Virus record (IMG/VR): IMGVR_UViG_3300025929_000305
Span: 1 to 30,750 of that record
Direction: 5' to 3' (one strand)
DNA: 30,750 bases
Origin: a virus
Shown here: positions 3,252 to 26,636 of the stretch, piece by piece
Layout of the letters: each line of letters opens with the position of its first letter
Position numbering within the stretch: the stretch's first letter is position 1
Notes under the pieces: generated by a model
Databases searched by the model: none
What the model was told of the DNA's origin: nothing
What the model saw: only the letters and a program-made list of their open reading frames with translations
Position numbers and translations under genes: made by a program

Positions 3252-3713
3252 TTGGCCCGCCCGAAACTCCAAACCTGGTACGGAAAAGTCGCTGAAACCA
3301 TGGTCCGGGAAGGGAAAACCTTCCGCATGGCCGTGAATGTCCATGAAATTGACCTTCACGACGACGAATTTCAGCGAATTGAACGATCCCAGGAGTTTCA
3401 GGCGACGCTTTGGGCCGAGCGGATGCGGTTTTACAACGAAATAGCCGCTTCGCCAGGCCGGACAAAGACCGCAATCGCGGGAATTGTCACCATTTCCATC
3501 CAGAAGCTCTTCGACGCCGGCGAGTACGAAAAAGTTGTCGAAGCTTGTCTCAAGCTGGCCAAGATCGAGGGCTGGATGGGAGCCGAAAACACCGTCAACA
3601 TCTTTGAAAACGTGTCCGCGAAGGATTACGAGGCGGCACGGAAAGAACTTCTAGCCTTACTTGGAAACCCATCAGAAGCTGATTCAGGACCTGGGGAATC
3701 GCAGCTTAATTGA
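3252..3713 (+). CDS. terS: Terminase small subunit
   Basis: This protein (153 aa) matches the expected size and position of the DNA-recognition subunit of the packaging motor. The N-terminal part (MARPKLQTWYGKVAETMVRE) and the following segment to about residue 60 fit the helix-turn-helix region of small terminases. The middle is helical (residues 60-115) for oligomerisation, and the C-terminal tail is Glu/Ala-rich. The first codon is TTG, chosen because its product has the usual terminase beginning; the next start (ATG 3300) would remove the first 16 residues. Its 3' end overlaps the large-subunit frame by 53 bases. The family call comes from pattern and context, not from a diagnostic motif. 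Confidence 0.75.
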   Translation: MARPKLQTWYGKVAETMVREGKTFRMAVNVHEIDLHDDEFQRIERSQEFQATLWAERMRFYNEIAASPGRTKTAIAGIVTISIQKLFDAGEYEKVVEACLKLAKIEGWMGAENTVNIFENVSAKDYEAARKELLALLGNPSEADSGPGESQLN

Positions 3714-5175
3714 CAAGCTGGCGGTCCTTGAGGCCCTGGAGAAGAAGCGTCGGGACGAACAATTTATCAAGTATTGGCAAGCTTACCCAAAGCAGGGTGA
3801 GCTGTTCAGCCGTTTTACGGCTGACACAAAAATCTTTGGCATCCTCGGAGGCAATCGCTCCGGCAAGACAGAAATGGGTGCCTTCATCTCAGTGGCCTGG
3901 GCCCTCGGGAAGCAGTTCTTCGTAAACGAACCTGCTTGGGAGTATGTGAAAGACCTCCCCATTCCCGAGGGCCCTTGCAACATCTGGGTCGTGGGATTGT
4001 CTTTCGCCGTCCTGCGGGACGTGATTTTCCGCGAGAAGCTGCTGCATGGGAGGCAACATCCCCCGCTGCTGCCCAAAGACAGCACCATTGTGCGGAAGAT
4101 CAGTGAAGCTGACTTCCAGATTTTCTTCGCCAACGGGAGTGTGATTACTGGGAAGTCGGCGGACTCGGGCCGGGACAAGTTCCAATCGGCATCTTGTGAT
4201 CTGATTTGGATTGACGAGGAGCCAGATGTTGAGATTTTCGATGAATGCTACCAGCGAACTGCCGACTGTGCCGGTCGAATACTCCTTACCCTTACCCCCC
4301 TCACGGACATCTCCTCCGGAGCAACTGTACCGTGGGTCTTCGACCTCTACGAGGAATTCAAACACGGGAAGAAAGACGTAAATTTTGTCCAGCTTTCGGT
4401 CCTCGATAACCCGTATGTTCCAGAGGTTGAGAAGCAAAAGCTGCAAGATAAGTGGCAAGGTCACTTTGAAGAGCGTGCACGTCTGTATGGTGAGTTTGTT
4501 CGCCGCTCTGGTCTTGTCTATAACATGTGGAATCCTTCCGTCCACATGGTCAAACCTTTCCCTATTAGCCGGGATTGGCGGCGGATCGTTTCTATTGACC
4601 CTGCTGCCACTGGTACGACTGCGGCTATCTGGGCTGCCGTCGCCCCCGGAAGCAACAACCTATACCTTTACCGCGAATACTACGAACGGGACCGAGTTGT
4701 CTCTGACCATGCCAAGGGAATTCTGGCTCGAAATGCCGGTGACCCTGTTGACATATGGCTCATTGACCCCAAGTGGAGCATCCAGCGAAACGCTGAGAAT
4801 CACAAGCAAAACGGGCAGCTTTATCGAGAGTCGGGAATACCAGTTCGAGAGGCCGTAGTAGGCGAAGATTATGGGATGAACGAGTCGCGGGAGTACATGA
4901 ATGCGACTCTGTATCAGACCGAGCGGCACCCGAAGGTTTTCATCTTCGACGATCTGAAGTTCTTCCAGTGGGAAATCGAACACTACGTTTGGGATTTCTT
5001 CCAGAAAGGCGAACAAAAGGGGTTGTCCAAAGACAAGCCCCGCAAACGCAGCGACCATCTAATGAACGCCTTTCAATACCTTTGCGCCATGCGGCCCCGT
5101 GGGCTGAGCCGCCAGGCCAGGTATCGCAGCCTCGATGAGAGACGGGCGGATGCGGCTGTGAATAGCTACACTTAA
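3661..5175 (+). CDS. terL: Terminase large subunit
   Basis: This is the ATPase and nuclease that drives DNA into the prohead. Walker A is GNRSGKT at residues 64-70, Walker B is LIWIDEEP at 181-188 with the catalytic Glu after D185, and a coupling motif LLTLTP lies at 208-213. The C-terminal RNase H-like nuclease shows acidic residues D313 (SIDPA), D369 (WLIDP) and D465 (RSDHLMNAF). At 504 residues it is a full-length protein. The start is uncertain: TTG 3661 gives a 53-base overlap with the small subunit, no good ATG lies near, and the first about 20 residues may not be translated. Confidence 0.96.
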   Translation: METHQKLIQDLGNRSLIDKLAVLEALEKKRRDEQFIKYWQAYPKQGELFSRFTADTKIFGILGGNRSGKTEMGAFISVAWALGKQFFVNEPAWEYVKDLPIPEGPCNIWVVGLSFAVLRDVIFREKLLHGRQHPPLLPKDSTIVRKISEADFQIFFANGSVITGKSADSGRDKFQSASCDLIWIDEEPDVEIFDECYQRTADCAGRILLTLTPLTDISSGATVPWVFDLYEEFKHGKKDVNFVQLSVLDNPYVPEVEKQKLQDKWQGHFEERARLYGEFVRRSGLVYNMWNPSVHMVKPFPISRDWRRIVSIDPAATGTTAAIWAAVAPGSNNLYLYREYYERDRVVSDHAKGILARNAGDPVDIWLIDPKWSIQRNAENHKQNGQLYRESGIPVREAVVGEDYGMNESREYMNATLYQTERHPKVFIFDDLKFFQWEIEHYVWDFFQKGEQKGLSKDKPRKRSDHLMNAFQYLCAMRPRGLSRQARYRSLDERRADAAVNSYT

Positions 5176-9201: not shown

Positions 9202-12200
9202 GTGAAAAAGCTCCTAACAATTCTAACTCTCTTTGCCGCCAGTTGTGGGGTGTGGGCACAAAACCACACAGAAGTGACCCTGGAAGATAATCAGACTATC
9301 ACAGGAACTAAGTCATTTTCTCAGTACGCATTGACGGTAGCTGGACTTCCAGTTGCTCCTCCCAACGGAACTCCCGCCATTGTGCTGGACGGCAACGGCT
9401 CAAGTTGTACTGCCGGTGGTGGGGTTACTATCGTATTGTGTTTATACAATAACGGTTGGCAAGTCGTAAGTGGTGGTGGGGGTGGTGGTGGAAGCGCGTT
9501 TGTAGGTGGTCTGGGAAATTCGTTTCAAGATGTTACGGAAGTTGCTGCGCCAGTAAACCCAGTCACTGGAAACGACCGCTTGTGGTTGGATTCAACTAGT
9601 CATACCTTAAAATGTAAAACTAGCTCCGGTGCTGACTGTTTTCTTCCCGCTGCAATCAACTTAGCGGGGTCTAGTTTTGGCGGCGTTACAGGTACTCTGC
9701 CAGGGGCTAATATGTCCGCAGTAAACCTAGCCGCTGGTGGAAATGGCGGTGTTAGCGGCATCTTACCAACTGGAAACCTTCCCTTTACCTACACAGGTAA
9801 CACTACTAAGCTAGTAACGGGCGGGACTATAGCTGGAACAGCACAGCCACTGTGTACAGATATAAACCTAAACGCTACCACTTCTGGTTGTCCTGGCGCT
9901 ACATCGGTTCCATTCAGTGGTATTACAGCGTCCACTAATAGCACGGCAGCAATGGTTATTGGTACGGGAGCTTCTCTTGCAGCAACAGGCAGTGGAACCA
10001 TAACCGCCACAAGCCTTGCATTAGGAAGCTCGGGGACGATAACTGCATCTTCTGGGGCTAGTGTAGACTTCTCCTCCGTCGTGGCAACAGCCTTCAAGAT
10101 TCCTGTAGCGGTAGGGGCTTCACCTACCGCCGATGGTCAGTTGGGAGTAGACTCTACAACACATTATTTCAACTTCGGTTCTAATGGTAGCACTCATAAT
10201 GTGGCGGCCTGGGCCGGAGATATTGGTGGGAATACTGCCCTTTCCCCACAGGTTACAGTTACACATTTGAGTTCTCCGTTACCCATTGCACAGGGGGGAA
10301 CTGCGGGAACAACGGCAGGGGCAGCGTTTACCAATCTTGCTCCAGTGGCTACGATTGCCGGATCAATTATGTATTGGAACGGAACCTCCTGGGTCAAGTT
10401 AGATGGGAATACCTCTGGTACTAACTTCTTACAGGAAAACGCGCTGGGAGTTCCTTCCTGGGCAGCCACGGCGGCAACTGTTGCTTGGTCAAATATCAGT
10501 CCTGCGGCAACCAACACCATCATTAACAATGGTGCGTTTAGCACTACATTTACCCAAACCGCTGCCCAGAACTGGTTCTGGTCAAACACCACTGCGTCCA
10601 CGTCAAGCGTCAATCAGAGCTCTCCCATCTTCAACATCTGCGGGCAGGGCTGGGAAGGTTCTACCCCCGCCGATACGCAGGACTGCTGGACATTACAGAA
10701 CGTCATTCCCAACGGCCCCAATCCCAACGTGACTCTACTGTTTGGAAATAGCGGAGCAACCTCTGGGCTTCGCATAGTGCAGTTCCCCGGACCAATCGCC
10801 ACACAGGGAGCTGTGTCAACGTCCTGCTCTGGAGCATCCGGCGGGTGTATAGGGTTAACCGAAGGTTCATCCGTTCCTTCTGGCTTGGGTGGTGTGGATG
10901 AGCTATATGCAAAATCGTCCTCCCATCGCCTGATGATGAACAACAACAATGCTGGAGAACAGCAGATTGTAGGTTCGGGAGTAGATATAAATACTTCCGA
11001 CCAGGTCATAAGCCTTCACCTTACCTCTCCGGCCCAATGCACCAACCAAGTTCTAAACGGGGTGACCGCTGGGGTCACCGGCACAAGCACCTGCGTAACC
11101 ATTACCTCGGCCTATGTGGATACAACCGTAGCCACTACCAACGGAGCAAACAGCTATACCGCTGGGCCGCAGGACTTGAATCTTCAGGCGTTGACTCAGC
11201 AGTTCGCCAATGACACGGTAACTGGAACCACTGCCAAACTCCTGGCAAAGCTCACCTCCACAGGAGCGATAAAGGCTGGAACCAGCGACACCGCAGTTCC
11301 GGTTTACATTGTTGATTCCGGAGCTGGAATCACGGGTAGCGCCAAGTTGGCTTTTGGTGGACAGGAACTTTGCACAATGGATGCTACCCAGTCCAATACC
11401 GAGGGATTTATCGTTGTCGCCTCAGGTACGACGGCTGGAGAGTGTCATGCTGTGTCTCCCCCCATTGCCCCAACTTCAGGTACGTTCGTTATTGGAACCC
11501 TTAAATCCAATTCGACCACTTTGGGCTCCAATGCGACCGTGGCGGTCAACCCTTACTTCGTAAACCCGTCCAGCGCGGGTGGAGGTGGTTCGGGTACGGT
11601 CAACTCGGCCACGGGTGGGCAAATGACAGGCTATACCGCTACAGGAACGACGGTGTCAGGACTACCTAGCGAAACATTCAGTGCCGGTGATGTCACATTC
11701 GGTCAAGCAGGCTCGGTGCAGGGATCACTGTCCTTAGCAGGGGCTACGTCAAGCGCAACTAAGATTACCGCTCCGGCTACTGCTGGGGGTACAAATACTC
11801 TGCAAGCCGTTACCGATACCTTTGTCTATCGGGCAACTACGGACACTTTAACTAATAAAACCTTCGACACCGGGGGAACGGGGAACGTCTTCAAGGCCAA
11901 CGGAACGCAGGGAACTACGGGTCAGGTTCTCCGAGCTACCACCTCTGCGGGACCGCAGTACATTGACTTCCCTGATGTGCATATCATTCCTGCCGCGAAC
12001 TGCAACAATACGACTGGCGGTCCGGGGTGGTCTATTGGTTCGGGTGGGACCGTAACCTGTCGGGCAGGAACCAACAACAAGGGAGGCTTCATCTCCATAA
12101 CCGATACCTCCACCACGTTTGCTACGTTCCAGGTTGCAATTCCAGAGGATTGGGATTCGGCTTCTAATCCATTTATCCGATTCCAGGTTGCCTCTACTGA

Positions 12201-12504
12201 CGCAACCTCTGGACATACCATCATCCCCTCGATTCAAGTGGCTTGTTACAAGGGCGATGGTTCAACCACGGACGATGTAGCTGCGAACGCTGCCCACTCT
12301 CTATCCACTATCACACTCAATACAACCGCCAACCAGTTCTGGTCTAGCGACAACGTGCAGATGAATGCCACCGACATGACCGGATGTGTGGCGGGAGCCG
12401 TGATGCAGGTCACTGTAGGACGAGCTACCGATACGGCTACTAATGCGGAGTTTTACTCCGCAACTATTACCTTCCCCAGACTCCTGGTGGTGCAAGCCAA
12501 CTGA
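9202..12504 (+). CDS. Tail-fibre-like protein with Sec signal peptide (1100 aa)
   Basis: The N-terminus MKKLLTILTLFAASCGVWA (cleavage likely before Q20) is a textbook Sec signal, unusual for a tailed-phage fibre. A Gly-rich hinge follows near residues 91-97. The long Thr/Ser/Gly/Ala-rich shaft has fibre-like phrases such as PIAQGGTAGTTAGAAFTNL and TDTLTNKTFDTGGTG. The C-terminal about 130 residues form a compact Cys-containing beta domain. The first codon is GTG directly after the previous stop (TAA GTG), without a ribosome site, so translation is probably coupled. The 3' end overlaps the next start as TGATG. It is either a receptor-binding fibre exported before use or an adhesin placed on the infected cell. 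Confidence 0.85.
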   Translation: MKKLLTILTLFAASCGVWAQNHTEVTLEDNQTITGTKSFSQYALTVAGLPVAPPNGTPAIVLDGNGSSCTAGGGVTIVLCLYNNGWQVVSGGGGGGGSAFVGGLGNSFQDVTEVAAPVNPVTGNDRLWLDSTSHTLKCKTSSGADCFLPAAINLAGSSFGGVTGTLPGANMSAVNLAAGGNGGVSGILPTGNLPFTYTGNTTKLVTGGTIAGTAQPLCTDINLNATTSGCPGATSVPFSGITASTNSTAAMVIGTGASLAATGSGTITATSLALGSSGTITASSGASVDFSSVVATAFKIPVAVGASPTADGQLGVDSTTHYFNFGSNGSTHNVAAWAGDIGGNTALSPQVTVTHLSSPLPIAQGGTAGTTAGAAFTNLAPVATIAGSIMYWNGTSWVKLDGNTSGTNFLQENALGVPSWAATAATVAWSNISPAATNTIINNGAFSTTFTQTAAQNWFWSNTTASTSSVNQSSPIFNICGQGWEGSTPADTQDCWTLQNVIPNGPNPNVTLLFGNSGATSGLRIVQFPGPIATQGAVSTSCSGASGGCIGLTEGSSVPSGLGGVDELYAKSSSHRLMMNNNNAGEQQIVGSGVDINTSDQVISLHLTSPAQCTNQVLNGVTAGVTGTSTCVTITSAYVDTTVATTNGANSYTAGPQDLNLQALTQQFANDTVTGTTAKLLAKLTSTGAIKAGTSDTAVPVYIVDSGAGITGSAKLAFGGQELCTMDATQSNTEGFIVVASGTTAGECHAVSPPIAPTSGTFVIGTLKSNSTTLGSNATVAVNPYFVNPSSAGGGGSGTVNSATGGQMTGYTATGTTVSGLPSETFSAGDVTFGQAGSVQGSLSLAGATSSATKITAPATAGGTNTLQAVTDTFVYRATTDTLTNKTFDTGGTGNVFKANGTQGTTGQVLRATTSAGPQYIDFPDVHIIPAANCNNTTGGPGWSIGSGGTVTCRAGTNNKGGFISITDTSTTFATFQVAIPEDWDSASNPFIRFQVASTDATSGHTIIPSIQVACYKGDGSTTDDVAANAAHSLSTITLNTTANQFWSSDNVQMNATDMTGCVAGAVMQVTVGRATDTATNAEFYSATITFPRLLVVQAN

Positions 12505-13208
12505 TGAAACATTGTATTTGCATATTGTTTTTGACACTGTTAGCGGTGCCTTCGTTCGCTGTCATCAGTGAGGTACAGCACGCGACCACGACCAATAGGT
12601 TATTGAGCTTTGCAAGCACCGTTACAGCCGGTGATTGGTTTGTGGTTGCCGTAATTGTAGACGATACTACCGATACTCCATTTGTGTCACCAACCACTCA
12701 TGATAATTGCGGCAATGCGACTTACACGTCGGCGGTTCAGGTCACCGATGCTGGCCGTGGGTCTAATACGTGGATTTTTTACGGCAAGGTTGTTACCACT
12801 TCAGCAAGTTGCACCCTGACCATGTTCGACACTACTCCGGGGTCGGGAATGGCTGCTATCGGGGTGGAGTTCACAAACATAGTGGGCACTTCTCCGCTTG
12901 ACAAAGCTGTAGGGGCTTCCGGTTCCGGTACGGCACTTAATTCTGGGCCTACCAGTGCAACCTCACAGGCCAATGAATTAGTCTTTGGTGTTCTTACTGA
13001 TGGTGCAGACACGTTTACCAAGGGGCCGTCGTTTACCACCAGCTATACCACGACTTCCATACTAGCACAGTATAAGGTAGTTACTTCGATTGGCACCTAC
13101 GACTCCGATGGCACCAAGGCTGTATCGTCAGCGTGGGAATCAGCAGTAGCTACATTCAAGGATGTTTCCCCAGGGGCCGCTCCAACCATGCCCCCAGCGA
13201 TTTACTGA
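12504..13208 (+). CDS. Secreted beta-sandwich protein (234 aa)
   Basis: A Sec signal, MKHCICILFLTLLAVPSFA, with an SFA cleavage site at 17-19, is followed by one beta-sandwich domain of about 200 residues. The domain has the pattern AGDWFVVAVIVDD, CTLTMFDTTPGSG, VGVEFT-like strands and ANELVFGVLTDGADTFTKG. A diverged copy is in the fourth gene of this block (about 409-615 of the 1062-residue protein). TGATG overlaps the upstream fibre stop, so the two are translationally coupled. It is probably a carbohydrate- or surface-binding module; no catalytic residues were seen. Confidence 0.8.
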   Translation: MKHCICILFLTLLAVPSFAVISEVQHATTTNRLLSFASTVTAGDWFVVAVIVDDTTDTPFVSPTTHDNCGNATYTSAVQVTDAGRGSNTWIFYGKVVTTSASCTLTMFDTTPGSGMAAIGVEFTNIVGTSPLDKAVGASGSGTALNSGPTSATSQANELVFGVLTDGADTFTKGPSFTTSYTTTSILAQYKVVTSIGTYDSDGTKAVSSAWESAVATFKDVSPGAAPTMPPAIY

Positions 13209-13209
13209 A

Positions 13210-16200
13210 ATGAAACCCTTCTTGGTGCTTTTTATCTTGTCCTGTCTGTCCTCCGCCCAGGTGGAAATGACAGGAACCTCAGTTAAGGGAATACAAATGT
13301 CGGCCAACCTGCCGACCATTCAAAGCGTGACCCTTTCCCCCAACGCTGTCGTGGGAGGCGCATCGTCCCTTGGGACAGTGAATATCTCTCTTGGCAAGGG
13401 AGAGACCGTACTTCTATCAAGTTCTAACCCTTCTGTGGCTTCGGTTCCGGCCTCAATAGTCATCAGCAAAGGGTCTACGTCCGGAACATTCAACATCACC
13501 ACCACTCCGGTCGCCGCCAATACCACCGTTACCATCACCGCCACGCTCAACGGCACATTCCAAACCACGCTAACTGTTATTGCGCCCACGGTAAGTGCTT
13601 TGTCCTTGAATCCAAACTCCGTGACTGGCGGCAGTCCTTCTACCGGGACAGTGACGATTAGTGGCAATGCTCCTACGGGTGGTATTGCAGTCGCTTTGTC
13701 ATCCTCCAATACCCCGGCGGCAACAGTTCCAGCGAGTGTGACTGTACCTGCGGGCCAGAACTCGGCCAATTTCACCGTCACTACCCTCTCCGTCAGCTCG
13801 ACTACCACGTCCATCATAACGGCAACACTCGGGGGTTCGCAGACCGCCGTTCTTACCGTCAATGCCAGTGTGGTTCTGTCAGCGTTCACCATAAATCCTA
13901 GTACAGTTACGGGAGGGTCACAGAATTCCACTGGAACTGTTACCCTGAATTCTCCAGCTCCGAGCGGGGGCTCATCGGTAACTCTCAGTAGCTCTAATTC
14001 CTCTGTGGCTTCGGTTCCGGCCAGCGTGGCAGTGGCCGCAGGAAACACCACAGCCAACTTCACGATAACGAGCTTTTCTGTCGGCTCTACTACAGCAGTT
14101 ACCATTACAGCCGTTCTTGGGGTAACTCTAACCGCGACATTGACGGTAAATGCCAGTTCAGGAACCACGGCAGGAGACACCCTGCCCAATGCGACCGGAA
14201 CTGGTTGGAGTGATTTACCCAATACGTCTCCCTGCTCCTTGGGTACGGCTAACTTTCCTTCAGGCGTGACGTGCTCCCAAGGAGCAAATGACTGGTCTAG
14301 CGGCTTCTATGACAAATCCAGAAAGCAATTGGTCTGGGTAGGCTGGGGACATACGGGGGGCTGTGACAACGCTTTCTATGCCATTCAGTTAGACGGCAAC
14401 CCGGCATTTCTCAAGCGATTGGATATGTGGTCGGCTGGTTCGGCTACAGGTGGAACTTATGCAGACGGCTCCCCACAAACAGGTCATACATACGATGGCG
14501 TGGTCTATGTTCCCCCCACCAGTGCCAACGGTCCAGACAGCTTCATTCAGACGAACGAAGGTGTGTGTACCACGGCTGGAGGGTTAGGGAATTCATCCGT
14601 AGTCCGCTTATCTAACATCGCTGCTGCTGGACCCACTAACACCGTTTCTGGATCAAGCTGGGTGGCAGTAGGGACACCGAACAACGGCTACTACGGTGGT
14701 GGAGACTTCGATCCCAACACCTCAATGGTCTATAGCGTCAGCGGAGACAACAGCTCTGGAGCCTCGTGGATGCTGACCACCATCAACCCATCTAATGGCG
14801 CAGTGACAGTGGTAGAGAATGGTCATGGACTCTGCTACCAATGCACCATGATAGTTGATCCAGACTTGAGAAAGATGTATGGATTTGGTCCCAACGTTCA
14901 GGGCGTCAACATTCTGATAAGTGCGGCCATCATTGCCTGGGACATCAACCCAGCCCATGCTGGAACTACTTACGGAATCGCTGCCGCTGCATCTGCTTCC
15001 GGCTGTCCCACTTTCACCAACGATCCGGGGGCCGATTGGGACCCGGTAGCACACCTTATCGTCATCTGGAACTCGAACGGCAACCCCACAACCAACAACC
15101 TGGTGCTCTACAACCCTGATACGGTGTCTCATACCGAAGGCTCGACTTCGGTTCCGGCAGGAAGCTGCGTGACCATAACCCCCTCTGGAAATGGTCCTGT
15201 TGCAGGGACAGTAAGCAATGGAACCTTCAAGCGATTCCGCTACGTGGATTACTGTGATTGTTTCGTCATTCTGAACAACGACGAGCAGGATGCCTTCATC
15301 GTCCGTACCCGCCCCCATCTAGCCCCCAACAGCTTCACGGCGCGTTCGACCGGGACCAATGTACCTGGAGGTGCAACAAGCATCATCGGTACTCAGAATT
15401 TTGACGGCCCCGTAATTCTCGGTGCTAGTCTGGGCGGCCAACTGGAAGGTGTAGGGGCCACCAACACCACAGCAGGGTGGACACAAGACACAACCAACTT
15501 TGCCGATGGCGGTAGTTCCTGGCGCTGTAATGTGGCTGCTGGCCAGCAGTCCTGCACTGACTACTTCCGCAACTTTGGCGGACCGACCAATTTTCCCAAC
15601 GGTGTGGGGTTGGGAGGGGAGTTCTACTTTCAATTCCGTGAATATTTCGGGCCTAACTTTATCGGCAATTCCAATTGGCCGAGTGGAGAAGGTTACAAGA
15701 CTGGCGGCCCCATGGCGGAAGAGGACCGCAATGGGTACATAGCGCCTTCTTGTTCTACCCAGCCAGACGAAGTAGTTATCAATGCCAGAATGTCAGATGC
15801 TCTGGCTCCGATGATTTACACCCACTGCCCACCTATCAATTTAATGCAATACGCCACAGTCGGCAGCGATTTCCTCGACCAGATTCCCGCAGGCTGTGTT
15901 CACTACGGAGGACGAGGAGCCGGGAATGCTGGCGAAGGCGATCCCGGCTGCTGGTTCTACCATGCTGGAGAATGGTTCACCTTTCAGGAGCACGTCAAGG
16001 TTGCTGCCGGAGGCTGGAATACGTGTTGCTCCACGGTGGAAGTGTGGGCCTCCCACGCAGGACAACCGTCTCGCCTCATCATCCAAAGCTCACAGTGGAT
16101 TTTGGGTAATGACAATCCCGCGTCGTCTCTTTACGGCAAGCTCTGGCTCAATGCCTTCAATACAGGAAATACCGGGGCAGTGCAATCAACTTGGGCCGAT

Positions 16201-16647
16201 TTTGATGATTTGATTATCTCCAAACGTCGTATTCCCGATCCCGACGTAGGCGTGCCCAATGCGCCCGATTCCATTACCGCAACCATCAACTCCCAAACGT
16301 CGGTGACGTTAAACTGGCGGGTGAACTCCAACAACGGCACGGCACAAGACGATACCGGGTTTAGTGTGGAACGCTGTAGCCCAACCAATACCGGGCACAT
16401 TGAATTATGTTTTACCGGGCTTGAGACCTTTAGTGTCGTAGGCACAACCGCTGCTCATGCCTCGTCTTACACAGACAACACAGTGGTTCACGGAACAAGC
16501 TATATCTACCGCGTGAGAGCAGTTAACTCTACTGGCAATTCTGCTTACACTGTAGGCTGGTGTCAAGGCAACAACTTTGCTTGGGGTGGATTCACCGCTC
16601 AACCAGGAACACCCCCTAATCCTTGTGGCAGCATGGTGACTCCTTAA
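13210..16647 (+). CDS. Large secreted adhesin-like protein with Ig-like repeats (1145 aa)
   Basis: A signal peptide MKPFLVLFILSCLSSA precedes Q17. Domains in order: three Ig-like repeats (38-123, 127-218, 222-315); a beta-propeller or kelch-like region with Gly/Trp/Asp turns (about 330-690, e.g. LVWVGWGHTGGCDNAFY); a jelly-roll domain resembling polysaccharide-lyase or concanavalin folds (about 705-1010, e.g. GEFYFQFREYFGPNF and WADFDDLIISKRRIPD); and a fibronectin-III domain (about 1015-1115). It is rich in Cys, fitting export and disulfides. I chose ATG 13210, one base past the previous stop, because it begins the signal peptide; an earlier in-frame ATG (13162) would bury it. It may bind or cleave surface polysaccharide. 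A free secreted protein or virion part are both possible. Confidence 0.82.
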   Translation: MKPFLVLFILSCLSSAQVEMTGTSVKGIQMSANLPTIQSVTLSPNAVVGGASSLGTVNISLGKGETVLLSSSNPSVASVPASIVISKGSTSGTFNITTTPVAANTTVTITATLNGTFQTTLTVIAPTVSALSLNPNSVTGGSPSTGTVTISGNAPTGGIAVALSSSNTPAATVPASVTVPAGQNSANFTVTTLSVSSTTTSIITATLGGSQTAVLTVNASVVLSAFTINPSTVTGGSQNSTGTVTLNSPAPSGGSSVTLSSSNSSVASVPASVAVAAGNTTANFTITSFSVGSTTAVTITAVLGVTLTATLTVNASSGTTAGDTLPNATGTGWSDLPNTSPCSLGTANFPSGVTCSQGANDWSSGFYDKSRKQLVWVGWGHTGGCDNAFYAIQLDGNPAFLKRLDMWSAGSATGGTYADGSPQTGHTYDGVVYVPPTSANGPDSFIQTNEGVCTTAGGLGNSSVVRLSNIAAAGPTNTVSGSSWVAVGTPNNGYYGGGDFDPNTSMVYSVSGDNSSGASWMLTTINPSNGAVTVVENGHGLCYQCTMIVDPDLRKMYGFGPNVQGVNILISAAIIAWDINPAHAGTTYGIAAAASASGCPTFTNDPGADWDPVAHLIVIWNSNGNPTTNNLVLYNPDTVSHTEGSTSVPAGSCVTITPSGNGPVAGTVSNGTFKRFRYVDYCDCFVILNNDEQDAFIVRTRPHLAPNSFTARSTGTNVPGGATSIIGTQNFDGPVILGASLGGQLEGVGATNTTAGWTQDTTNFADGGSSWRCNVAAGQQSCTDYFRNFGGPTNFPNGVGLGGEFYFQFREYFGPNFIGNSNWPSGEGYKTGGPMAEEDRNGYIAPSCSTQPDEVVINARMSDALAPMIYTHCPPINLMQYATVGSDFLDQIPAGCVHYGGRGAGNAGEGDPGCWFYHAGEWFTFQEHVKVAAGGWNTCCSTVEVWASHAGQPSRLIIQSSQWILGNDNPASSLYGKLWLNAFNTGNTGAVQSTWADFDDLIISKRRIPDPDVGVPNAPDSITATINSQTSVTLNWRVNSNNGTAQDDTGFSVERCSPTNTGHIELCFTGLETFSVVGTTAAHASSYTDNTVVHGTSYIYRVRAVNSTGNSAYTVGWCQGNNFAWGGFTAQPGTPPNPCGSMVTP
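13321..14154 (+). repeat. Three tandem Ig-like repeats in the adhesin gene
   Basis: Units at 13321-13578, 13588-13863 and 13873-14154 encode about 90 residues each, with repeated phrases such as LSPNAVVGG, LNPNSVTGG and INPSTVTGG, and SVASVPAS in the first and third. Similar arrays are common in secreted proteins of environmental bacteria, including Acidobacteriota. Internal duplication is clear at protein level; the DNA copies have diverged. Confidence 0.75.
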
Positions 16648-16654
16648 AATTAAA

Positions 16655-19600
16655 ATGTCATTCAAATCCTTGACGTTATCTTCTTTCTTTCTCCTCACCG
16701 CGATACTTGCAGGTGGTCAAACACACAAGACTGCCATGCAGGACCTTAACAACCACATGACGGGGCAGAATGACTTTACTCAGGCGATCCAGTACGACCC
16801 CATCCTTTTCGCCAATCTTCCCACTGCCGTCAACGGCCTACACGCCTTTTGCTCTGATTGTCAGGTAAGCAATCCCTGCACAGGTGGCGGCACAGGTGCA
16901 TTTGCCCGCGCTGTTGGAGGGGCGTGGAATTGTTATGCGGGTGATGTGACTTTTGGAAACGGTGTTCCTTCGGGCAGCTGTGCAAGCAATCTCAGATACA
17001 TTCGACTTGATAATCCTGGCGGGGTGTACATTTGCCGTAATGGCTCCTGGATGCCAGAAGCCTCTACCCTGATATTGAATGAAGAACCTCCTTCTGGATC
17101 CACAATTTCTAATCCAACTGCCTGTACCTCCATTGTTTCCACCGCAGTCCCCGTTCAATGGGAGGCTTTACCGACACCGAATAACTACCAAATAACACAA
17201 TGTTTGGACACGGTAAATGGAAATCGTTTTGATCTATCTATAAATATTTGTAGTGGCACTAATTGCACGCCCCCGCCGATCACCCAGCCAACAATGACCT
17301 GTGCTCCGTCCTCGTTGCTTTTTCCCAATACCAACACGAATCAGACTAGCGGTTCGCAGACGGTGAACTGCTCCAACACGAGCACCTCAGGGTCCAGCGT
17401 CATCTTCTCCGGAATCACCTTTACCACGGGGACGAACTTTAATCTGGTTTCTCAGAACTGCGGAACAATAGCCCCTGGGGGGAGCTGTTCTATTGTCATC
17501 ACGTTCAGTCCCTCGGCGGCTCAGGCTTATTCCGACACCCTAAATATCGCCTCCAACGCGCAGGGCAGCCCGGTCACGGTGTCTCTTTCGGGAACCGGGG
17601 TCACTCCGACCACCCCAACTCCTTCCTCGGTAACGATTTCTCCGGCCAGCCCCTCTGTCGGTATCGGCGCAACCTCGAACGAAAGCGCCACGTTGGTAAT
17701 GTCTGACTCGACAACTCATCCTTCTATCGGGGCGTTTTGGAACTCTGCGACGACAGCCAACGCAACCGTCTCGAATACGGGTGTAATTACTGGAGTAGCT
17801 TTGGGAACTTCTGTCATTTCCGCCAATTCAGGTTCTTACGTTTCTCCCAATAACGCTGAAGTCCACGCCGGGGCGGGACCGTTTACGACTCAGGTTCTCC
17901 CAGCTTTCGCGTCTCCTAATCTCTCAGGCGACCGAATTCTCTGCGCGGTGATGTGGGGCTCAGCTACGGGAACTGTCTCAGGAGTTTCCGACACGGCAGG
18001 CAACACTTACGCCGCTATAACCGGCACGCTCGAACAGGCCAACAGCAATAGTGTGCAGTGGTGGACGGCAACCGGCATCAAGGGTGCCTCCAACAATGTT
18101 ATTACGGTTACGTGGTCTGGAGGTGGAGTTGGGTTCCCTGACCCCATCTGTTTTGAGGTTCAGGGCGATACGGCAGTAGACCAAGCAGCGGTGGGAACGG
18201 TGGCCGCAGGAACCTCGGTAGCAACCACAGCCATTACGCCCGCCCAGGCCAGCGAGACGATATTCTCGGCGGTTATCACCGGGAACTTCGTCAAGGCTAT
18301 AAATTCTGGGGCCTTTTGTATCGTGGCCGGCGGTTCAGGGCAGAATGGATTGAATGGAACCTCCTGCCCGGTTTCGGGCGCGGGTTCGAGCGTCTTCCAG
18401 CAGGGCACGTTCTCTACCGCTGCCGTGACCCCTACGGCAACTCTCAACGCATCCTCGAACGCCGTTATTTCCTCAGTAGCTTTGAAGACGATTACAGGAA
18501 CCATCACGGCAACCGTGTCCAACGGTTCTAGTTTGTTTTCCATCTCCAGCCCCATGCCCGCAGGCACTAACATTTATCCGACCAGCCCCGCCGCCATCTC
18601 GGGGATTTCATCGGGGCCGCTCTACAACACGCCCATTCCGTCAAGTGCGACAACCTTCCCTCTCCAGCATTGCTATGGAAACACTTCAAACTGTGCCGCT
18701 GGGGATGCGAACGCGCAATTCACTATTACCGGAAACGAGAACTGCACCTTCAACGCGGCAGACACATCAACCTTGGGGTGTGGGCTCATCATCATCGCCA
18801 AAGCCCAGAGCAGCACCGACCTGGGACAGCCCATCTACTACTCAAATCCCGCCACCGACCCCTACTATTCGATGACAGGCCCGCAATGCAACCTGAATGA
18901 CCCCGGACTAAACTTCAAGTTCCAATGCACGAACAACGCCCAGTTCAGCGGCTCAACCAGCGACCAGAACCTTGGCTGTTATGACCAGGCGCAGCAGTTG
19001 TTCTTTGGCGGATATGCATTCGACAAGGGAGTGGGATTCTCTTTGGGGGCCTGTCCAGGCGGAGGCCACGCTGGAACCTTGGCCGACCCCTGCCCCATTC
19101 CCGGTATCTCCGCGTGTACGGCTAACCGTGTAGGAACGGACCCCAGTTGGGGCTCGGGCAATTACACGGTAACGACTCCGGGGAGCTATACCCTCGGCTT
19201 CGGTTCTGGACAACGGGCGGCAGCGGGAGCGATGCAGGTCCGCATTCAGGAACTCATTTCTGGCAACATCAACCACGCGATTGGAATTGGCGTGCCGTGC
19301 AATCAGTCCACCTTGGTCTTCCCCGCTTCCTCTGTGGACCTCGTTTGCACCGGGTCAAATGGTCTGCCGGTGTCGAGCAATGACCCCGTATTTGCTGGAC
19401 TCTACTGGCTGGATTACACCACGGCGCAGATAAACGCTATGGGTCTTCCAGCGTGGAAGTCGGCCATCCTCAAGGCCATGTCCACCTATGGGTTCTATCC
19501 CACTGTCACGATAGGAGGACAAGCGTTCACAGGCTTCCAAATGATAAACACAGTAGAATCGCAGACCGCTTACAAGTTCGCCGGTCAAACCACGAGTCCT

Positions 19601-19843
19601 ATCAATCCACTGTGCTCCCAGTCCCAGATCGCCATTTGTACCACGGGGTCTCCATCAACGGCCATCTTCGAGACAGATATCTTCAACGCTGATATTCCAC
19701 TGGTGCAGACCATAGGTTCAACTTCCGTTGATCCTGCTGGACATGCCTGCAACTCCGCAGGGGGTTGCGACTGGCGCGGCCACGTGCATCTGCTTGACTC
19801 CTGCGTAGCCAAGACGATGGCGGGCCAGCCCGGCGGTTGTTAG
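16655..19843 (+). CDS. Large secreted Cys-rich multidomain protein (1062 aa)
   Basis: The N-terminus MSFKSLTLSSFFLLTAILA is a Sec signal (cleavage likely after A19). Residues 20-210 hold a short segment resembling the N-terminal part of the first fibre (LPTAVNGLHAFCSDCQVSN against its LPVAPPNG...CTAGGG region). Then come an anchor-D-like domain (213-315), an Ig-like BIG2-type domain (324-397), a beta-sandwich related to the 234-residue protein (409-615), and a Cys-rich C-terminal domain (620-1062, 18 Cys) that I do not recognise. It starts eight bases after the upstream stop. Export and disulfide bonding are likely. The function may be surface binding; no enzyme motif was found. Confidence 0.82.
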   Translation: MSFKSLTLSSFFLLTAILAGGQTHKTAMQDLNNHMTGQNDFTQAIQYDPILFANLPTAVNGLHAFCSDCQVSNPCTGGGTGAFARAVGGAWNCYAGDVTFGNGVPSGSCASNLRYIRLDNPGGVYICRNGSWMPEASTLILNEEPPSGSTISNPTACTSIVSTAVPVQWEALPTPNNYQITQCLDTVNGNRFDLSINICSGTNCTPPPITQPTMTCAPSSLLFPNTNTNQTSGSQTVNCSNTSTSGSSVIFSGITFTTGTNFNLVSQNCGTIAPGGSCSIVITFSPSAAQAYSDTLNIASNAQGSPVTVSLSGTGVTPTTPTPSSVTISPASPSVGIGATSNESATLVMSDSTTHPSIGAFWNSATTANATVSNTGVITGVALGTSVISANSGSYVSPNNAEVHAGAGPFTTQVLPAFASPNLSGDRILCAVMWGSATGTVSGVSDTAGNTYAAITGTLEQANSNSVQWWTATGIKGASNNVITVTWSGGGVGFPDPICFEVQGDTAVDQAAVGTVAAGTSVATTAITPAQASETIFSAVITGNFVKAINSGAFCIVAGGSGQNGLNGTSCPVSGAGSSVFQQGTFSTAAVTPTATLNASSNAVISSVALKTITGTITATVSNGSSLFSISSPMPAGTNIYPTSPAAISGISSGPLYNTPIPSSATTFPLQHCYGNTSNCAAGDANAQFTITGNENCTFNAADTSTLGCGLIIIAKAQSSTDLGQPIYYSNPATDPYYSMTGPQCNLNDPGLNFKFQCTNNAQFSGSTSDQNLGCYDQAQQLFFGGYAFDKGVGFSLGACPGGGHAGTLADPCPIPGISACTANRVGTDPSWGSGNYTVTTPGSYTLGFGSGQRAAAGAMQVRIQELISGNINHAIGIGVPCNQSTLVFPASSVDLVCTGSNGLPVSSNDPVFAGLYWLDYTTAQINAMGLPAWKSAILKAMSTYGFYPTVTIGGQAFTGFQMINTVESQTAYKFAGQTTSPINPLCSQSQIAICTTGSPSTAIFETDIFNADIPLVQTIGSTSVDPAGHACNSAGGCDWRGHVHLLDSCVAKTMAGQPGGC

Positions 19844-19855
19844 TCCTTCCTTTTC

Positions 19856-21910
19856 ATGCCTGATAAAGCAATCAGTGGTAGCAAAGACGTAGCTCTTGCT
19901 GACGACCCAATTCTGAACGACGCGGTCAACAAACTGCGGCGGATGCGCTATTTCCGCCGCCAGTATGACCAGCGCCGAATTCTCTTTTATCGCCAGTACC
20001 TTGGCCAGCGTGACGCCCGGATGTTCCCGGACAACGTCACCAGCCGCAGCAACACTTTCGTTCCTTATCCGTTGTCCAACGTGGAAAGCATTGTCTCCCG
20101 CGTGGATGACGCCTTTTTCTCATTCGATCCGTGGTTCGAGGCAAAGCCACGCAGTGAAGGAGACCAGCCCGCCTCCGAGAACATGCAGTGTGTTCTGGCC
20201 GACCGGCTGCACAAGGCCAACTTCAAGGCCGCCTTTGAGACCCTGGTGCGGAACATCTGCATCTACGGCCATGCCGCAATCAAGGTGGACTGGGACTGGG
20301 ACACGGAGACGGTCACCTACGCTCAGCCCATCTATGCCATTGACCCCAACACGGGGCAGCCGCTGATGCAGGTGGTGCAGACGCCCATGGGTCCGATACA
20401 GAATCCGGTGCAGATCGGCGTGCAGCCCATGACCAAACAGGTCCCTCGGGCCCGCCCCAAGTTCATTCCCATTGATGTCTTCGACATCCTGGTTGACCCG
20501 GATGGCGGCATTGTCGCTCACTTCATTGAGAGAACCCTCGGCCAGATGCACAAAGAGGCCGAGCAGAATCCCAAACTCTACATCCCAGAAGCCCTGGAGA
20601 AACTCACACAACGGGTCTACCAAGCCAACGTCAAGAACCCCGAGCAGGTGATTATTCGCCTCGCAGAGGTTTGGGACGAATTCACCAAGACCCAAACATT
20701 ACTTGTTTATAGCGAAGAAGTAGATGAAGCCCTCAAATGGAAAGACCTTCGATATTCTTACCGGAGTGCCAGTTATTCTCCTTATAAACGGGAAGCCTAT
20801 GGAGGGGAGCCTATTCTTCTTTACCACGGACCCAATCCCTTCATGCATCAACGGAACCCTATTCTTCATACCTCATTCATCAAACTCCCTAATGAGGTGT
20901 ATGGACTGGGTGCAATTGAAATTATCTCGGAGTTGACCGAAGCCCTGAACAAGATGGTCAACATGGTGGTGGATAACTGGAACCTGGGAATTAACCACCG
21001 CTATGCGTATGACACTGCGGCTGACATTGACCACGAGGCCCTGAATAATTTCAACACGCCTGGTGGGAAGGTCGCGGTCTCGGGCGACCCAAGCAAGGTC
21101 ATCATGCCCCTGCCGTTCTTCACGCCGCAGGCGGGGGATTATCAGATTCTTGAGCTATTCCGCGGACAGGTAGAACTGGCCTCTGGCGTGAGTGATTTCT
21201 ATTCCAAGGGCGTGGGCAGCCCCACCAATAACAAGACCGCCTCTGGCATCAGCAACGTGATGAACGAATCGAACTACCGATTCAAGCTGTTCATCCGCAA
21301 CCTGGAGCTGGACATCCTTCAGCCCATGCTGGAGATGTGCTCCTCGATGGTGCAGCAGTTCATCCAGGACCCGGTGGAGATTCAGATCACGGGGCAGCCG
21401 CCGGCAATTCGCAAGTGGGCGGTTCTGACCCCTGAGGAGCTGATTGGCACCCTGGACTTCCAGCTGGTTGCCGCCAACTACGCGACCAACAAAGTCATTC
21501 GCCAGCGGCAGTTCCTGGCCCTGATGAACATTGCCTCGCAGAGCCCGTTCTTGAATCAATACGAGGCCCTGAAGGAAGCGTTCAAACTCTTCGAGATTCC
21601 AAATTCGGCCAAGCTGCTTTACAACGAGCAGCAGGTTGCCATGATGCAGCAGCAGCAACTTGACCAGCAAGTCAAGATGATGATGATGGAAGCCGCACTG
21701 CAAACCGAAGGCCAAGCGAGATTGGCCCAGTCGAAACCCCAACCCGCCTCCGGGGCGATGAAGGGGAAGAAGCCGGGCCAGAAGCCCAAGATGCAATTCG
21801 AGGGCAAGATTCCGGGAGCTGGTCTCACCAGCACCATCCGGAGCCTCGGACAGAGCTTGGGCATGAATAGCCTGGGGCTAGAGGGCCTCAGTGAAGAGGG
21901 TGGATTTTAA
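19856..21910 (+). CDS. Portal protein
   Basis: At 684 residues this has the size of portals from short-tailed phages, and is placed before scaffold and capsid. The N-terminal part (LRRMRYFRRQYDQRR; RMFPDNVTSRSNTFVPYPLS) and the region around EALNKMVNMVVDNWNLGIN match the long helical portal core. The final about 100 residues are Gln/Met-rich helix (MMQQQQLDQQVKMMMME) and a basic Gly/Pro tail, as in portal barrels. It forms the twelve-membered ring through which DNA enters and to which adaptor and nozzle attach. Its stop overlaps the next start as TAATG. Confidence 0.88.
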   Translation: MPDKAISGSKDVALADDPILNDAVNKLRRMRYFRRQYDQRRILFYRQYLGQRDARMFPDNVTSRSNTFVPYPLSNVESIVSRVDDAFFSFDPWFEAKPRSEGDQPASENMQCVLADRLHKANFKAAFETLVRNICIYGHAAIKVDWDWDTETVTYAQPIYAIDPNTGQPLMQVVQTPMGPIQNPVQIGVQPMTKQVPRARPKFIPIDVFDILVDPDGGIVAHFIERTLGQMHKEAEQNPKLYIPEALEKLTQRVYQANVKNPEQVIIRLAEVWDEFTKTQTLLVYSEEVDEALKWKDLRYSYRSASYSPYKREAYGGEPILLYHGPNPFMHQRNPILHTSFIKLPNEVYGLGAIEIISELTEALNKMVNMVVDNWNLGINHRYAYDTAADIDHEALNNFNTPGGKVAVSGDPSKVIMPLPFFTPQAGDYQILELFRGQVELASGVSDFYSKGVGSPTNNKTASGISNVMNESNYRFKLFIRNLELDILQPMLEMCSSMVQQFIQDPVEIQITGQPPAIRKWAVLTPEELIGTLDFQLVAANYATNKVIRQRQFLALMNIASQSPFLNQYEALKEAFKLFEIPNSAKLLYNEQQVAMMQQQQLDQQVKMMMMEAALQTEGQARLAQSKPQPASGAMKGKKPGQKPKMQFEGKIPGAGLTSTIRSLGQSLGMNSLGLEGLSEEGGF

Positions 21911-23983: not shown

Positions 23984-24988
23984 ATGAAACTTTTTAATTT
24001 GCTGCTCATTGCCTTCGGCTTTGGAGCGGATGTAATCACCGTCACCTCGGGCACGGCGGGTAATGCCGGTAGCACTGCTGCCGAACTTATTACCTACATG
24101 TCTGCCCGTCTGTTGGAAGTTGCAGAGCTTAACACCATTCTGGACCAGTTTGGTGACAAGCATCCTCTGCCCAGTAACTCCTCGAAGACGATTCGCTTCG
24201 TCCGTGAAGAGAAGCTGTCAGTTGCTGCAAGTCCGACCCAGTTGACGGAAGGTCTCGCTCCCGATGCCGCTGGTATCACCCTTAACCAATTTGAAGCCAC
24301 CATCGAACAGTACGGTTCGGTGATTCGTCTGTCCGACCTGGCGGAAGTAACCGCCCGGCACGACATCATCTCTCGTAGCATCTACATCCTGGGCCTCCAG
24401 GCTGCTGAGACCTACGACCAGCTGATCTACAACGTGCTGAATGCTGCGTCGAACACCTATTACCCGAATAACCGTGGTGGTGACACCTCCCTGGTGGGCT
24501 CCGACCTGGTCAGCTATGTTGACCTGATCGAGCTGGATGCGACTCTCCAGACTCAGGGCGCTCGGCCTTATGAAGGCGGCGACTATGTCTTCGTGACTAG
24601 CCCGCAGCCCTACGCTGGCCTGCTCCGCGACCCCGACTGGAAGGCTTCAAACCAGTTTGCCGCGCCCCAGAAAATCTGGCGTGGTGAAGTTGGCACCCTG
24701 GGCGGATTCCGCGTAATCCGTTCCAACAGCCCTGCGTTCGCCGCAACGAGCCAGGCTGGTGCTGGGCAGTCGAACTTGGTCTACAGTTCGTTTGCTCTGG
24801 GCCGCTTTGCCTACCAGATCACTGATCTCCAGAACCTGCGTGTATACGTGGTTGCTCCTGGCGGTCAGGTTGACCCCCTGATGCAGTCCCGCAAGATTGG
24901 TTGGAAGTTTGCTTTCAAGAGCATCATCACCAATCAGAACTGGATTCGCCGGGTTCGGTCTTCTGGTCTGTCCTCGGTAACTAACTAA
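23984..24988 (+). CDS. Major capsid protein, N4-gp56 type (334 aa)
   Basis: The body matches the N4-gp56 capsid family: AELITYMSARLLEVAELNTI, then a long GSVIRLSDLAEVTARHDIIS helix and AETYDQLIYNVL, and a C-terminal strand region. It has no Cys, unlike the exported proteins nearby. ATG 23984 follows CTGAAGGAATCA, a good ribosome site. The first 15 residues (MKLFNLLLIAFGFGA) are hydrophobic with a Lys, like a weak signal peptide, which is not normal for a capsid. No other in-frame ATG keeps the family N-terminus. The position after scaffold supports the call. Confidence 0.92.
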   Translation: MKLFNLLLIAFGFGADVITVTSGTAGNAGSTAAELITYMSARLLEVAELNTILDQFGDKHPLPSNSSKTIRFVREEKLSVAASPTQLTEGLAPDAAGITLNQFEATIEQYGSVIRLSDLAEVTARHDIISRSIYILGLQAAETYDQLIYNVLNAASNTYYPNNRGGDTSLVGSDLVSYVDLIELDATLQTQGARPYEGGDYVFVTSPQPYAGLLRDPDWKASNQFAAPQKIWRGEVGTLGGFRVIRSNSPAFAATSQAGAGQSNLVYSSFALGRFAYQITDLQNLRVYVVAPGGQVDPLMQSRKIGWKFAFKSIITNQNWIRRVRSSGLSSVTN

Positions 24989-25281: not shown

Positions 25282-25656
25282 ATGTCACTCGGTAAACAGA
25301 TGACCTTGGACGAGAAGATCGCTGCCAAGGCTTCCCAGACAACTGATTGGGATTCCGATCAGTCTACCTGGGAATATGTCACAATCCCGGAAGAGAATGC
25401 GCTCGGTGAAAGGCATGATTCCATGAGCATCAACAACCATGTCTTCGCCCCCGGTCAAACCTACAAGGTTCCTCCGAAGATCGCGGAAACTCTACGGGAT
25501 CGTCTGAAGGTCTATGCCCGCGCCTGCGTGCGTATCCTTCAGCCCAAGCGTGACGTGGATGCAGAACGGCGTGTGGCCATTGGCTCTGCCAGCTCGGCCC
25601 AGGCTGTTGAGGCTTCCACTCTCGCCAACGACTTCAGCGGACTGAACGTTCGGTGA
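25282..25656 (+). CDS. Hypothetical protein, possibly head-tail (124 aa)
   Basis: CAAGGAGTTTTATG is a strong ribosome site, so ATG 25282 is used instead of an in-frame upstream start at 25246. The protein is mixed: N-terminal helix, strand region (EYVTIPEENALG; NNHVFAPGQTYKVP), then a long helix with AETLRDRLKVYARACVRIL. The APGQTYKVPPKIAE pattern recalls capsid-associated or head-completion proteins, without proof. Its stop overlaps the endolysin GTG as GTGA. Confidence 0.7.
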   Translation: MSLGKQMTLDEKIAAKASQTTDWDSDQSTWEYVTIPEENALGERHDSMSINNHVFAPGQTYKVPPKIAETLRDRLKVYARACVRILQPKRDVDAERRVAIGSASSAQAVEASTLANDFSGLNVR

Positions 25657-26036
25657 CCTGGTCCGACTGGGATAAAACTCTCCTGGCCCTCGTGATGTGG
25701 CGTGAAGCCCGTGGCGAAGGCCGGGAGGGTATGCGGGCTGTGGGCCACGTGGTGAAGAACCGCGTCAAGTTCACGGAGTGGGATCGGGTGATTGCTGCCA
25801 AGTGGCAGTTCTCCTCGATGGCCGCTCCCGGTGACCCAGAGTTGATTCTCTGGCCCGAGGCTCCCGACCCCGTCTTTGAAACGGCCATGTCCCTAGCCGA
25901 AGTCATCTACTCCGGCGAAGACCCCGACAATACCAACGGAGCCACACACTACTTCAACCCCAACGTCGTACTTCCCAGTTGGGCTGCGACGATGACCAAG
26001 GTAGCCTCTATCGGCCACCACGACTTTTATAAATAG
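25653..26036 (+). CDS. Endolysin, SleB-type cell-wall hydrolase (127 aa)
   Basis: This small enzyme has the SleB/Hydrolase_2 pattern: WREARGEGREGMRAVGHVV with the likely catalytic Glu at 18, and GATHYFNP (96-103), then VLPSWAATMTKVASIGHHDFY at the end. It hydrolyses peptidoglycan, as endolysin or virion-associated enzyme. It is one domain with no signal peptide, so it needs the holin or another route. Start GTG 25653 overlaps the previous stop (GTGA). The histidine phosphatase and holin follow closely. Confidence 0.92.
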   Translation: MTWSDWDKTLLALVMWREARGEGREGMRAVGHVVKNRVKFTEWDRVIAAKWQFSSMAAPGDPELILWPEAPDPVFETAMSLAEVIYSGEDPDNTNGATHYFNPNVVLPSWAATMTKVASIGHHDFYK

Positions 26037-26048
26037 AGATTATGCTAA

Positions 26049-26636
26049 GTGGCCACTGTCATTGTTGTAAGGCATTCGGATATTCCGGGCACTGACCCGA
26101 GTAATCCCATCTTCGACGGCTGGTCGAACCCCGCGCTCAATGAGCAAGGAATCAAGGATGCTGAGGCGTTAGCTGAAAAATTCGCCCACATTCCTTGCAA
26201 GCACGTCGTAACCTCTGACCTGCTTCGCACCTATCAGACGGCTGAAATCCTAGCCACCATGATGGGCGCGAAGGTTGAACCCACGCGGACCCTGCGTCCC
26301 TGGGACTACGGAATGTTCACCGGCCAGAAAGAAACCGCCGAGAACTTCCGCAAGCTGCAATATTACGTTGACCATCCGGATGTCCCCGTTCCTGGTGGAG
26401 AGAGTTTCCATACCTTCGCCTACCGTTTCGCAGCGACCTTCGAGAAGGCCTTGTTATACGCCAGGAAGCATCCTGACGAAACCGTGGTTCTGGTTACCCA
26501 TAGTCGCAATATATCTCTCGTCTTCACCATTCTGAGAGGCGAACAGATGAACGCGGTGAACTTCGATGAGACCCCGGACCCGGCTGGTTTCGTTGTCCTG
26601 AAACTCAAGAAGGACAAGTGGCAGGTGGAGAAGTAA
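26049..26636 (+). CDS. Histidine phosphatase (phosphoglycerate-mutase family, 195 aa)
   Basis: VVRHSD places the phospho-accepting His at residue 9 with Arg 8; a second Arg lies in SDLLRTYQTAEIL (R60), and the second His in VTHSRN (H151), with GGES near 116-119. These make a complete phosphatase core. The start is GTG 26049, 12 bases after the endolysin stop. The enzyme removes phosphate from small metabolites, sugars, nucleotides or proteins; the substrate is not shown. Its position between endolysin and holin is unusual. It overlaps the holin start as TAATG. Confidence 0.88.
   Translation: MATVIVVRHSDIPGTDPSNPIFDGWSNPALNEQGIKDAEALAEKFAHIPCKHVVTSDLLRTYQTAEILATMMGAKVEPTRTLRPWDYGMFTGQKETAENFRKLQYYVDHPDVPVPGGESFHTFAYRFAATFEKALLYARKHPDETVVLVTHSRNISLVFTILRGEQMNAVNFDETPDPAGFVVLKLKKDKWQVEK

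Follow-up and report, generated by a model that had tools for sequence, protein, structure and literature searches.

The leader-bearing gene block

The present analysis concerns IMGVR_UViG_3300025929_000305, a 30.75-kb virus record whose whole length (positions 1 to 30,750) is called the window below, and in it a block of four consecutive genes on the same strand (9202-19843), which lies between the genes for the terminase and the portal protein and in which each gene encodes a Sec-type signal peptide (SP). The coordinates, lengths, and N-termini reported for these genes in a preliminary description of the DNA were borne out (Table 1), and all four leaders passed an n/h/c-region heuristic, used with controls, by which SPs were called from a basic n-region, an uncharged hydrophobic core, and small residues at -3/-1. 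Cleavage is predicted to separate MKKLLTILTLFAASCGVWA from QNH in gene 1, MKHCICILFLTLLAVPSFA from VIS in gene 2, MKPFLVLFILSCLSSA from QVE in gene 3, and MSFKSLTLSSFFLLTAILAGG from QTH in gene 4. Mis-set starts or over-extended open reading frames (ORFs) can be ruled out as the source of the leaders because the start codons of the four genes abut, overlap, or sit at most 7 bases from the preceding stop, as in translationally coupled genes. Processing as lipoproteins by signal peptidase II was rejected because the lipobox [LVI][ASTVI][GAS]C has no canonical match in the four genes (gene 1 has AASC and gene 3 has ILSC, both non-canonical, and genes 2 and 4 have none). A reading as exported endolysins, of either the signal-arrest-release (SAR) or the SP type, was also rejected, because comparison with Pfam and PHROGs revealed no lysin domain in any of the four and a separate SleB-like hydrolase is encoded at 25653.

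No function for the whole of the gene 1 or the gene 2 product emerged from Pfam or PHROGs, and an AlphaFold model made for the C-terminal domain of the gene 1 product gave no useful information, its predicted local distance difference test (pLDDT) value being 42. The C-terminal ~195-220 amino acids (aa) of the gene 1 product are 63-68% identical to the C terminus of an SP-bearing fiber from a related locus (L046_6684), a sharing that looks like the tip exchange expected of receptor-binding fibers. Gene 3 encodes a C-terminal fn3-like domain, with a score below Pfam's cutoff, and gene 4 encodes ASH/HYDIN-type Ig and Big_2 domains, its residues ~45-95 being common to exported proteins of Terriglobia chromosomes. 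The mature proteins of genes 1 and 4 both begin with a short fiber-type motif (about DLNxxxTGxxxF). When relatives of genes 1, 3, and 4 were sought in viral contigs, none, or the same virus only, was found.

The window is from a short-tailed phage, and its other genes include those for an SU10-type portal and adaptor, a phrog_1357 capsid protein, a terminase, a GTA-type holin, and a SleB-like hydrolase. The relatives of the portal are metagenome viruses, and because its sole match in a bacterial genome lies in a contig of a Terriglobia metagenome-assembled genome, an acidobacterial host is likely, if unproven; the named phages closest by portal are distant, and none of them is acidobacterial. 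We regard the virus as a phage of soil bacteria, with a host probably among the Acidobacteriota (Terriglobia).

Table 1. Positions of the leader-bearing genes, their signal peptides, and other genes of the window
Feature	Position	Strand	Remarks
Gene 1, SP-bearing tail-fiber-like protein, 1100 aa	9202..12504	+	Predicted mature N terminus QNHTEVTLEDNQTITGTKSF; 18 mature Cys
Gene 1 signal peptide, residues 1-19	9202..9258	+	GTG start abuts preceding stop
Gene 2, SP-bearing protein, 234 aa	12504..13208	+	2 Cys after predicted cleavage; +1 is Val, not Gln
Gene 2 signal peptide, about 19 aa	12504..12560	+	
Gene 3, SP-bearing adhesin-like protein, 1145 aa	13210..16647	+	22 mature Cys
Gene 3 signal peptide, 16 aa	13210..13257	+	Start at 13210, not the longest-ORF start at 13162
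Gene 4, SP-bearing protein, 1062 aa	16655..19843	+	Predicted mature N terminus QTHKTAMQDLNNHMTGQNDF; 36 mature Cys
Gene 4 signal peptide, 19-21 aa	16655..16717	+	
Terminase large subunit	3661..5175	+	Context
SU10-type portal protein	19856..21910	+	Context; anchor for finding relatives
Major capsid protein, 0 Cys	23984..24988	+	Hydrophobic N terminus conserved, cleavage site not; negative control
SleB-like cell-wall hydrolase, without signal, probable endolysin	25653..26036	+	Lysis context
Holin, GTA_holin_3TM family	26618..27067	+	Lysis context

Recurrence, cleavage sites, and cysteine content

The preliminary description had proposed a search for the same signal-bearing block in related contigs, and the search was successful. 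Relatives were anchored on the portal and capsid proteins because the fiber bodies are too variable, and the comparison set thus obtained, the window plus 85 related loci, contains 366 proteins of at least 250 aa. The heuristic was passed by 38 of them, compared with 2 when the same N-termini were shuffled and 0 for internal starts, and the recurrence of the signals is not due to chance. False positives were excluded where recognized; these are capsid N-termini, L031_12673, L039_10567, L004_6979, and L013_7106, and false passes include two "YNN" fiber N-termini. The N terminus of the capsid protein is hydrophobic, signal-like, and conserved through "GFGADVVTV" in the window and its relatives without a conserved cleavage site, so hydrophobicity alone is no proof of export. 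The passing proteins that remain are nearly all large, Gly/Ser/Thr/Asn-rich, and fiber- or spike-like, and they are encoded at several genomic positions. Eight of the relatives are near-complete (65-68 kb), and nearly all of their fiber-like proteins of at least 290 aa bear a signal, while two deeper relatives have SP-less, Cys-poor fibers. In deeper relatives, SP-less fiber-like genes occupy the place between the terminase and portal genes. On a capsid tree, the SP label requires at least eight gains or losses, a figure from which no count of origins is drawn, as short flanks mislabel some tips (the L089 tip belongs to G008, whose signals lie outside the flank, and the L079 call is false).

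A block of the same kind exists in cultured phages. Tunturi_1 and Tunturi_2 (PP887698 and PP885685) are podoviruses that form plaques on Tunturiibacter psychrotolerans X5P2 (PMC11924767), and they carry leaders on gp12, 13, 14, 16, and 17, with Gln at +1 in four of the five and an even number of mature Cys in the four large proteins. The starts annotated by the depositors of Tunturi_1 include the leaders of gp12, 13, 16, and 17. No similarity to the window clade was detected by hhalign for the portal and capsid proteins of Tunturi_1 and Tunturi_2, and a metagenomic relative of the Tunturi phages has signals on its fibers as well. The four-gene block of the preliminary description is thus real, but the trait extends beyond four genes and beyond this phage. 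Fiber leaders are, however, not common to all acidobacterial phages, because the annotated fibers of Tunturi_3, which infects the same host strain, and of Tunturi_4 and Tunturi_5 have no leaders within the first 50 kb, which was the portion examined.

The predicted cleavage sites follow a preference that is also seen in the probable hosts. Among the 42 SP proteins with a length of 200 aa or more, 31 have Gln at +1 (three of the four in the window), but this count is biased because the cleavage caller favors Gln, and all rule-compatible positions were therefore compared as well. In the phage leaders, Gln was found at 21% of the rule-compatible positions at the leader end versus 3.7% of those within the mature protein (p 4e-14, a significance somewhat overstated, as is that for Cys below, since some of the 42 proteins are homologous pairs). 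In 35 genome stretches of 20 kb from Terriglobia, the corresponding values were 19.7% and 3.9% (p 1e-18), and in a small Escherichia coli sample Gln was found at 0 of 27 rule positions. At the residue that follows the signal peptidase site (+1), Gln is strongly over-represented in exported proteins of the Terriglobia loci L115-L129 and L171-L190. Terriglobia, like Bacteroidetes, favor Gln at +1 in their exported proteins, which is an occurrence of the Q-rule outside Bacteroidetes; the original paper described the rule as Bacteroidetes-specific and did not mention Acidobacteria (PMC5837995). A plant-type glutaminyl cyclase is encoded in 6 of the 20 Terriglobia genomes tested.

The number of Cys residues remaining after the predicted cleavage is even in 40 of the 42 SP proteins (p 2e-10), as against 95 of the 183 control proteins, which come from the same phages and have no SP, and in the window genes 1 and 3 reach an even number only once the leader is removed (19 to 18 and 23 to 22, respectively). 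Among fiber-like proteins, the density of Cys per 100 aa is 2.13 in those with an SP and 0.80 in those without. The preliminary description had contrasted two very Cys-rich adhesin-like proteins, the largest of the block, with a capsid protein that lacks Cys; the latter point stands, but Cys richness is not limited to the two largest proteins and is shared by all three large ones.

A fiber module with and without a signal, and neighboring genes

One fiber module allows the two kinds of N terminus to be compared directly. The module "YxNxVxNQxGxPVxGAxVxV" is placed at Met1 of SP-less fibers in L038, L007, L034, L043, L046, and L039, and it follows the cleavage site in SP-bearing fibers of L048, L029, L037, L012, and L020. 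Profiles of the two groups are homologous (hhalign 99%, E 4e-18), and the predicted cleavage of the SP-bearing copies would place the mature N terminus about one residue before the Met1 of the SP-less copies. A Cys pair is present in five of five SP-plus modules and in none of the six SP-less ones. Genes starting downstream of the signal, which the preliminary description had regarded as evidence against export, thus do exist among relatives, but they are other genes, and because the Cys content of their modules differs from that of the SP-plus copies, they support rather than refute export.

The SP-less module matches the tailspike 9vyg (E 2e-5) and 7eeq, a "tailspike head-binding domain" (E 0.0085), in the PDB. 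For an exported copy, AlphaFold gave a model (pLDDT 86) whose top PDB match is the spike of the Pan3 podophage tail complex (root mean square deviation 2.4, template modeling (TM) score 0.59, Foldseek E 0.0087). The model matches the head-binding domain of the P22 tailspike with a TM score of 0.56-0.60, and it gives 34 matches below 0.001 in a viral library, among them several annotated as pectate-lyase or tailspike proteins. In its fold, the N-terminal module of the relatives and of Tunturi gp12 is similar to the domain by which podovirus tailspikes such as those of Pan3 and P22 bind the virion.

Spike- or beta-helix-like proteins with SPs are also encoded in host DNA (L110:7466-8848, L111:8436-10112, L112:8426-10513, and L114:2068-3504), in some cases with glycosyltransferase-like genes around them. 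Several of these proteins have a "GGTGAxA" module in common with the phage fibers, and an exchange between tailspikes and exopolysaccharide enzymes is possible. Elsewhere in the window, a 195-aa GH16-family protein without a signal (PF00722, E 1.5e-17) is encoded at 22329-22916, between the portal and capsid genes, and a histidine-phosphatase-like protein, with an RHG-type motif recognized by eye, at 26049-26636, in the interval from the hydrolase gene to the holin gene; L003 and L004 have similar-looking genes in the corresponding places. An Rfam scan of the window gave no match. The capsid gene is apparently broken by ~500 bases in L016:14255-15880, and also in L008 and L010. The interruption in L016 contains a 149-aa ORF that by eye resembles a LAGLIDADG endonuclease (LAGFFAGEGSLTI) and might belong to an intron or intein, while Rfam and Pfam gave no match to the interruption or the ORF.

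Proposed assembly route, alternatives, and significance

Export is well supported by the sequences, because the starts are coupled, the residue at +1 is the host-style Gln, the mature Cys counts are even, and one module exists with and without an SP, with the Cys pair in the SP-plus copies alone. The SP proteins are also the best receptor-binding candidates, because the phage needs such a protein and the large fiber candidates of near-complete relatives almost all bear SPs. We lean toward the explanation that the four proteins are receptor-binding fibers or spikes that are exported through Sec, acquire their fold and disulfide bonds in the periplasm, and dock on virions at lysis. The fiber precursors would be exported by the host Sec system, and signal peptidase I would cleave them, in most cases so that Gln is exposed, as in many host proteins; the mature fibers would then fold and form their disulfides in the periplasm. 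The capsid and tail would be assembled in the cytoplasm and, after the holin and endolysin open the cell, the virions would meet the pre-folded fibers, whose N-terminal domain would dock on the tail. P22 spikes can attach late to finished particles in vitro. We infer cleavage, disulfide formation, docking, and receptor binding from the features described above. That two unrelated podovirus lineages of Acidobacteriota share such a split assembly, with all receptor-binding fibers exported, oxidized, N-terminally cyclized, and joining the virion only at lysis, is a broader idea that we put forward tentatively.

The preliminary description had left open whether the proteins leave or decorate the infected cell or mature outside the cytoplasm as fibers that attach after lysis. 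The main alternative, though rather unlikely, is that they are exported and never join the virion, a different protein binding the receptor. They would then work, free or on the surface of the infected cell, as adhesins, as lyases of exopolysaccharide, or as decoys, and would loosen the matrix, hide receptors, or prevent superinfection. All the evidence for export fits such free action equally; Terriglobia chromosomes encode SP-bearing spike-like proteins with shared modules, some apparently in polysaccharide gene clusters; the fold matches include Pantoea WceF (6tgf), a characterized bacterial enzyme of tailspike-like fold; and Ig-type domains like those of gene 4 are common in exported host proteins. 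The SP proteins, however, fill most of the fiber-coding capacity, so that several near-complete genomes have few further large candidates for receptor binding, their genes sit in the late structural region, and the N-terminal module in relatives is that of SP-less phage fibers and resembles tailspike virion-binding domains. Attachment after lysis is favored over decoys because nearly all large fiber candidates of the near-complete relatives bear SPs and the first domain after the cleavage site is tailspike-like in several relatives. Several observations nevertheless weigh against it. The tailspike-like module was not found in the four genes of the window itself, being seen in relatives and in Tunturi gp12; the Foldseek E-values to the PDB are modest (0.0087); the fold of the module (CarboxypepD_reg/transthyretin-like) is common also in exported bacterial proteins, which the SP-plus profile alone matches better than 9vyg; modules of gene 4 recur in exported host proteins encoded near polysaccharide genes, which would fit a free enzyme or adhesin too; some close relatives (L043 and L047) have SP-less fibers, so export is not obligatory; and neither virion nor secretome proteomics could be found for these phages, the main text of the Tunturi paper mentioning neither virion proteomics nor signal peptides (PMC11924767).

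Another possibility, which seems improbable, is that the signals hitch-hike, that is, fiber genes took up host exported domains together with their signals, and export has no selected role or has one only in lysogens. The modules shared with exported host proteins, the integrases found in 6 of 24 relatives, and the repeated gains or losses on the capsid tree would agree with this. Most relatives lack integrases, however, Gln at +1 and Cys parity are maintained across divergent and mutually unrelated fiber bodies, the Cys pair co-varies with the signal within one phage module, and isolates that form clear plaques retain five signals in one block. It is more improbable still that the hydrophobic N-termini are membrane- or tail-anchoring peptides retained in the virion: the capsid protein illustrates that a virion protein of this phage can have a hydrophobic N terminus, but the leaders combine a basic n-region with a small-x-small cleavage motif and a Gln at +1 matched to the host, the Cys counts of genes 1 and 3 become even only without the leader, and the SP-less homologs begin at the cleavage point.

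Podovirus tailspikes such as P22 gp9 and that of the cyanopodophage Pan3 are likewise large, modular, beta-rich fibers or spikes with an N-terminal module of similar fold that are encoded among late structural genes, but spikes of the P22 type carry no SP and are both made and assembled in the cytoplasm, while the proteins described here have a predicted cleavable signal and are Cys-rich. Filamentous phage coat proteins are virion proteins with cleavable Sec signals that are assembled at the membrane by extrusion, whereas the present phage has a tailed virion with a holin and an endolysin. WceF is a tailspike-like protein of a bacterial exopolysaccharide system, comparable to the SP-bearing spike-like proteins of Terriglobia that share modules with the phage fibers, but it is a host gene product, and the window proteins are encoded in phage structural operons. 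Sec-exported endolysins, such as Lys44 of fOg44 and SAR endolysins (PMC6116005), are late proteins of tailed phages that also use the host Sec system, but they are lysis enzymes rather than fibers, and a muralytic domain was not detected in any of the four window proteins. The nearest parallel in the literature is given by phages of Porphyromonas gingivalis, a member of Bacteroidetes, with five genes of unknown function whose products have Q-rule SPs (PMC10367356). The exposed Gln is matched to the rule of the host there too, but here the signals are on a block of large fiber-like genes in podoviruses linked to Acidobacteriota. Text searches of open-access papers turned up no report of Sec signals on tailed-phage fibers; most subscription papers and all preprints lay outside that scope, and a report that we did not see is possible.

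In textbook tailed phages, receptor-binding proteins are assembled in the cytoplasm, and the maturation of fibers outside the cytoplasm is, to our knowledge, unlike any known assembly route of tailed phages. A clade-wide block of Sec-exported, disulfide-rich fibers would, if true, represent a new route of morphogenesis and would explain how these viruses can build cystine-stabilized fibers; before the cell lyses, such fibers could also serve as free enzymes or mask receptors. Tunturi_1 and Tunturi_2, which form plaques on a culturable acidobacterium, have this block as well.

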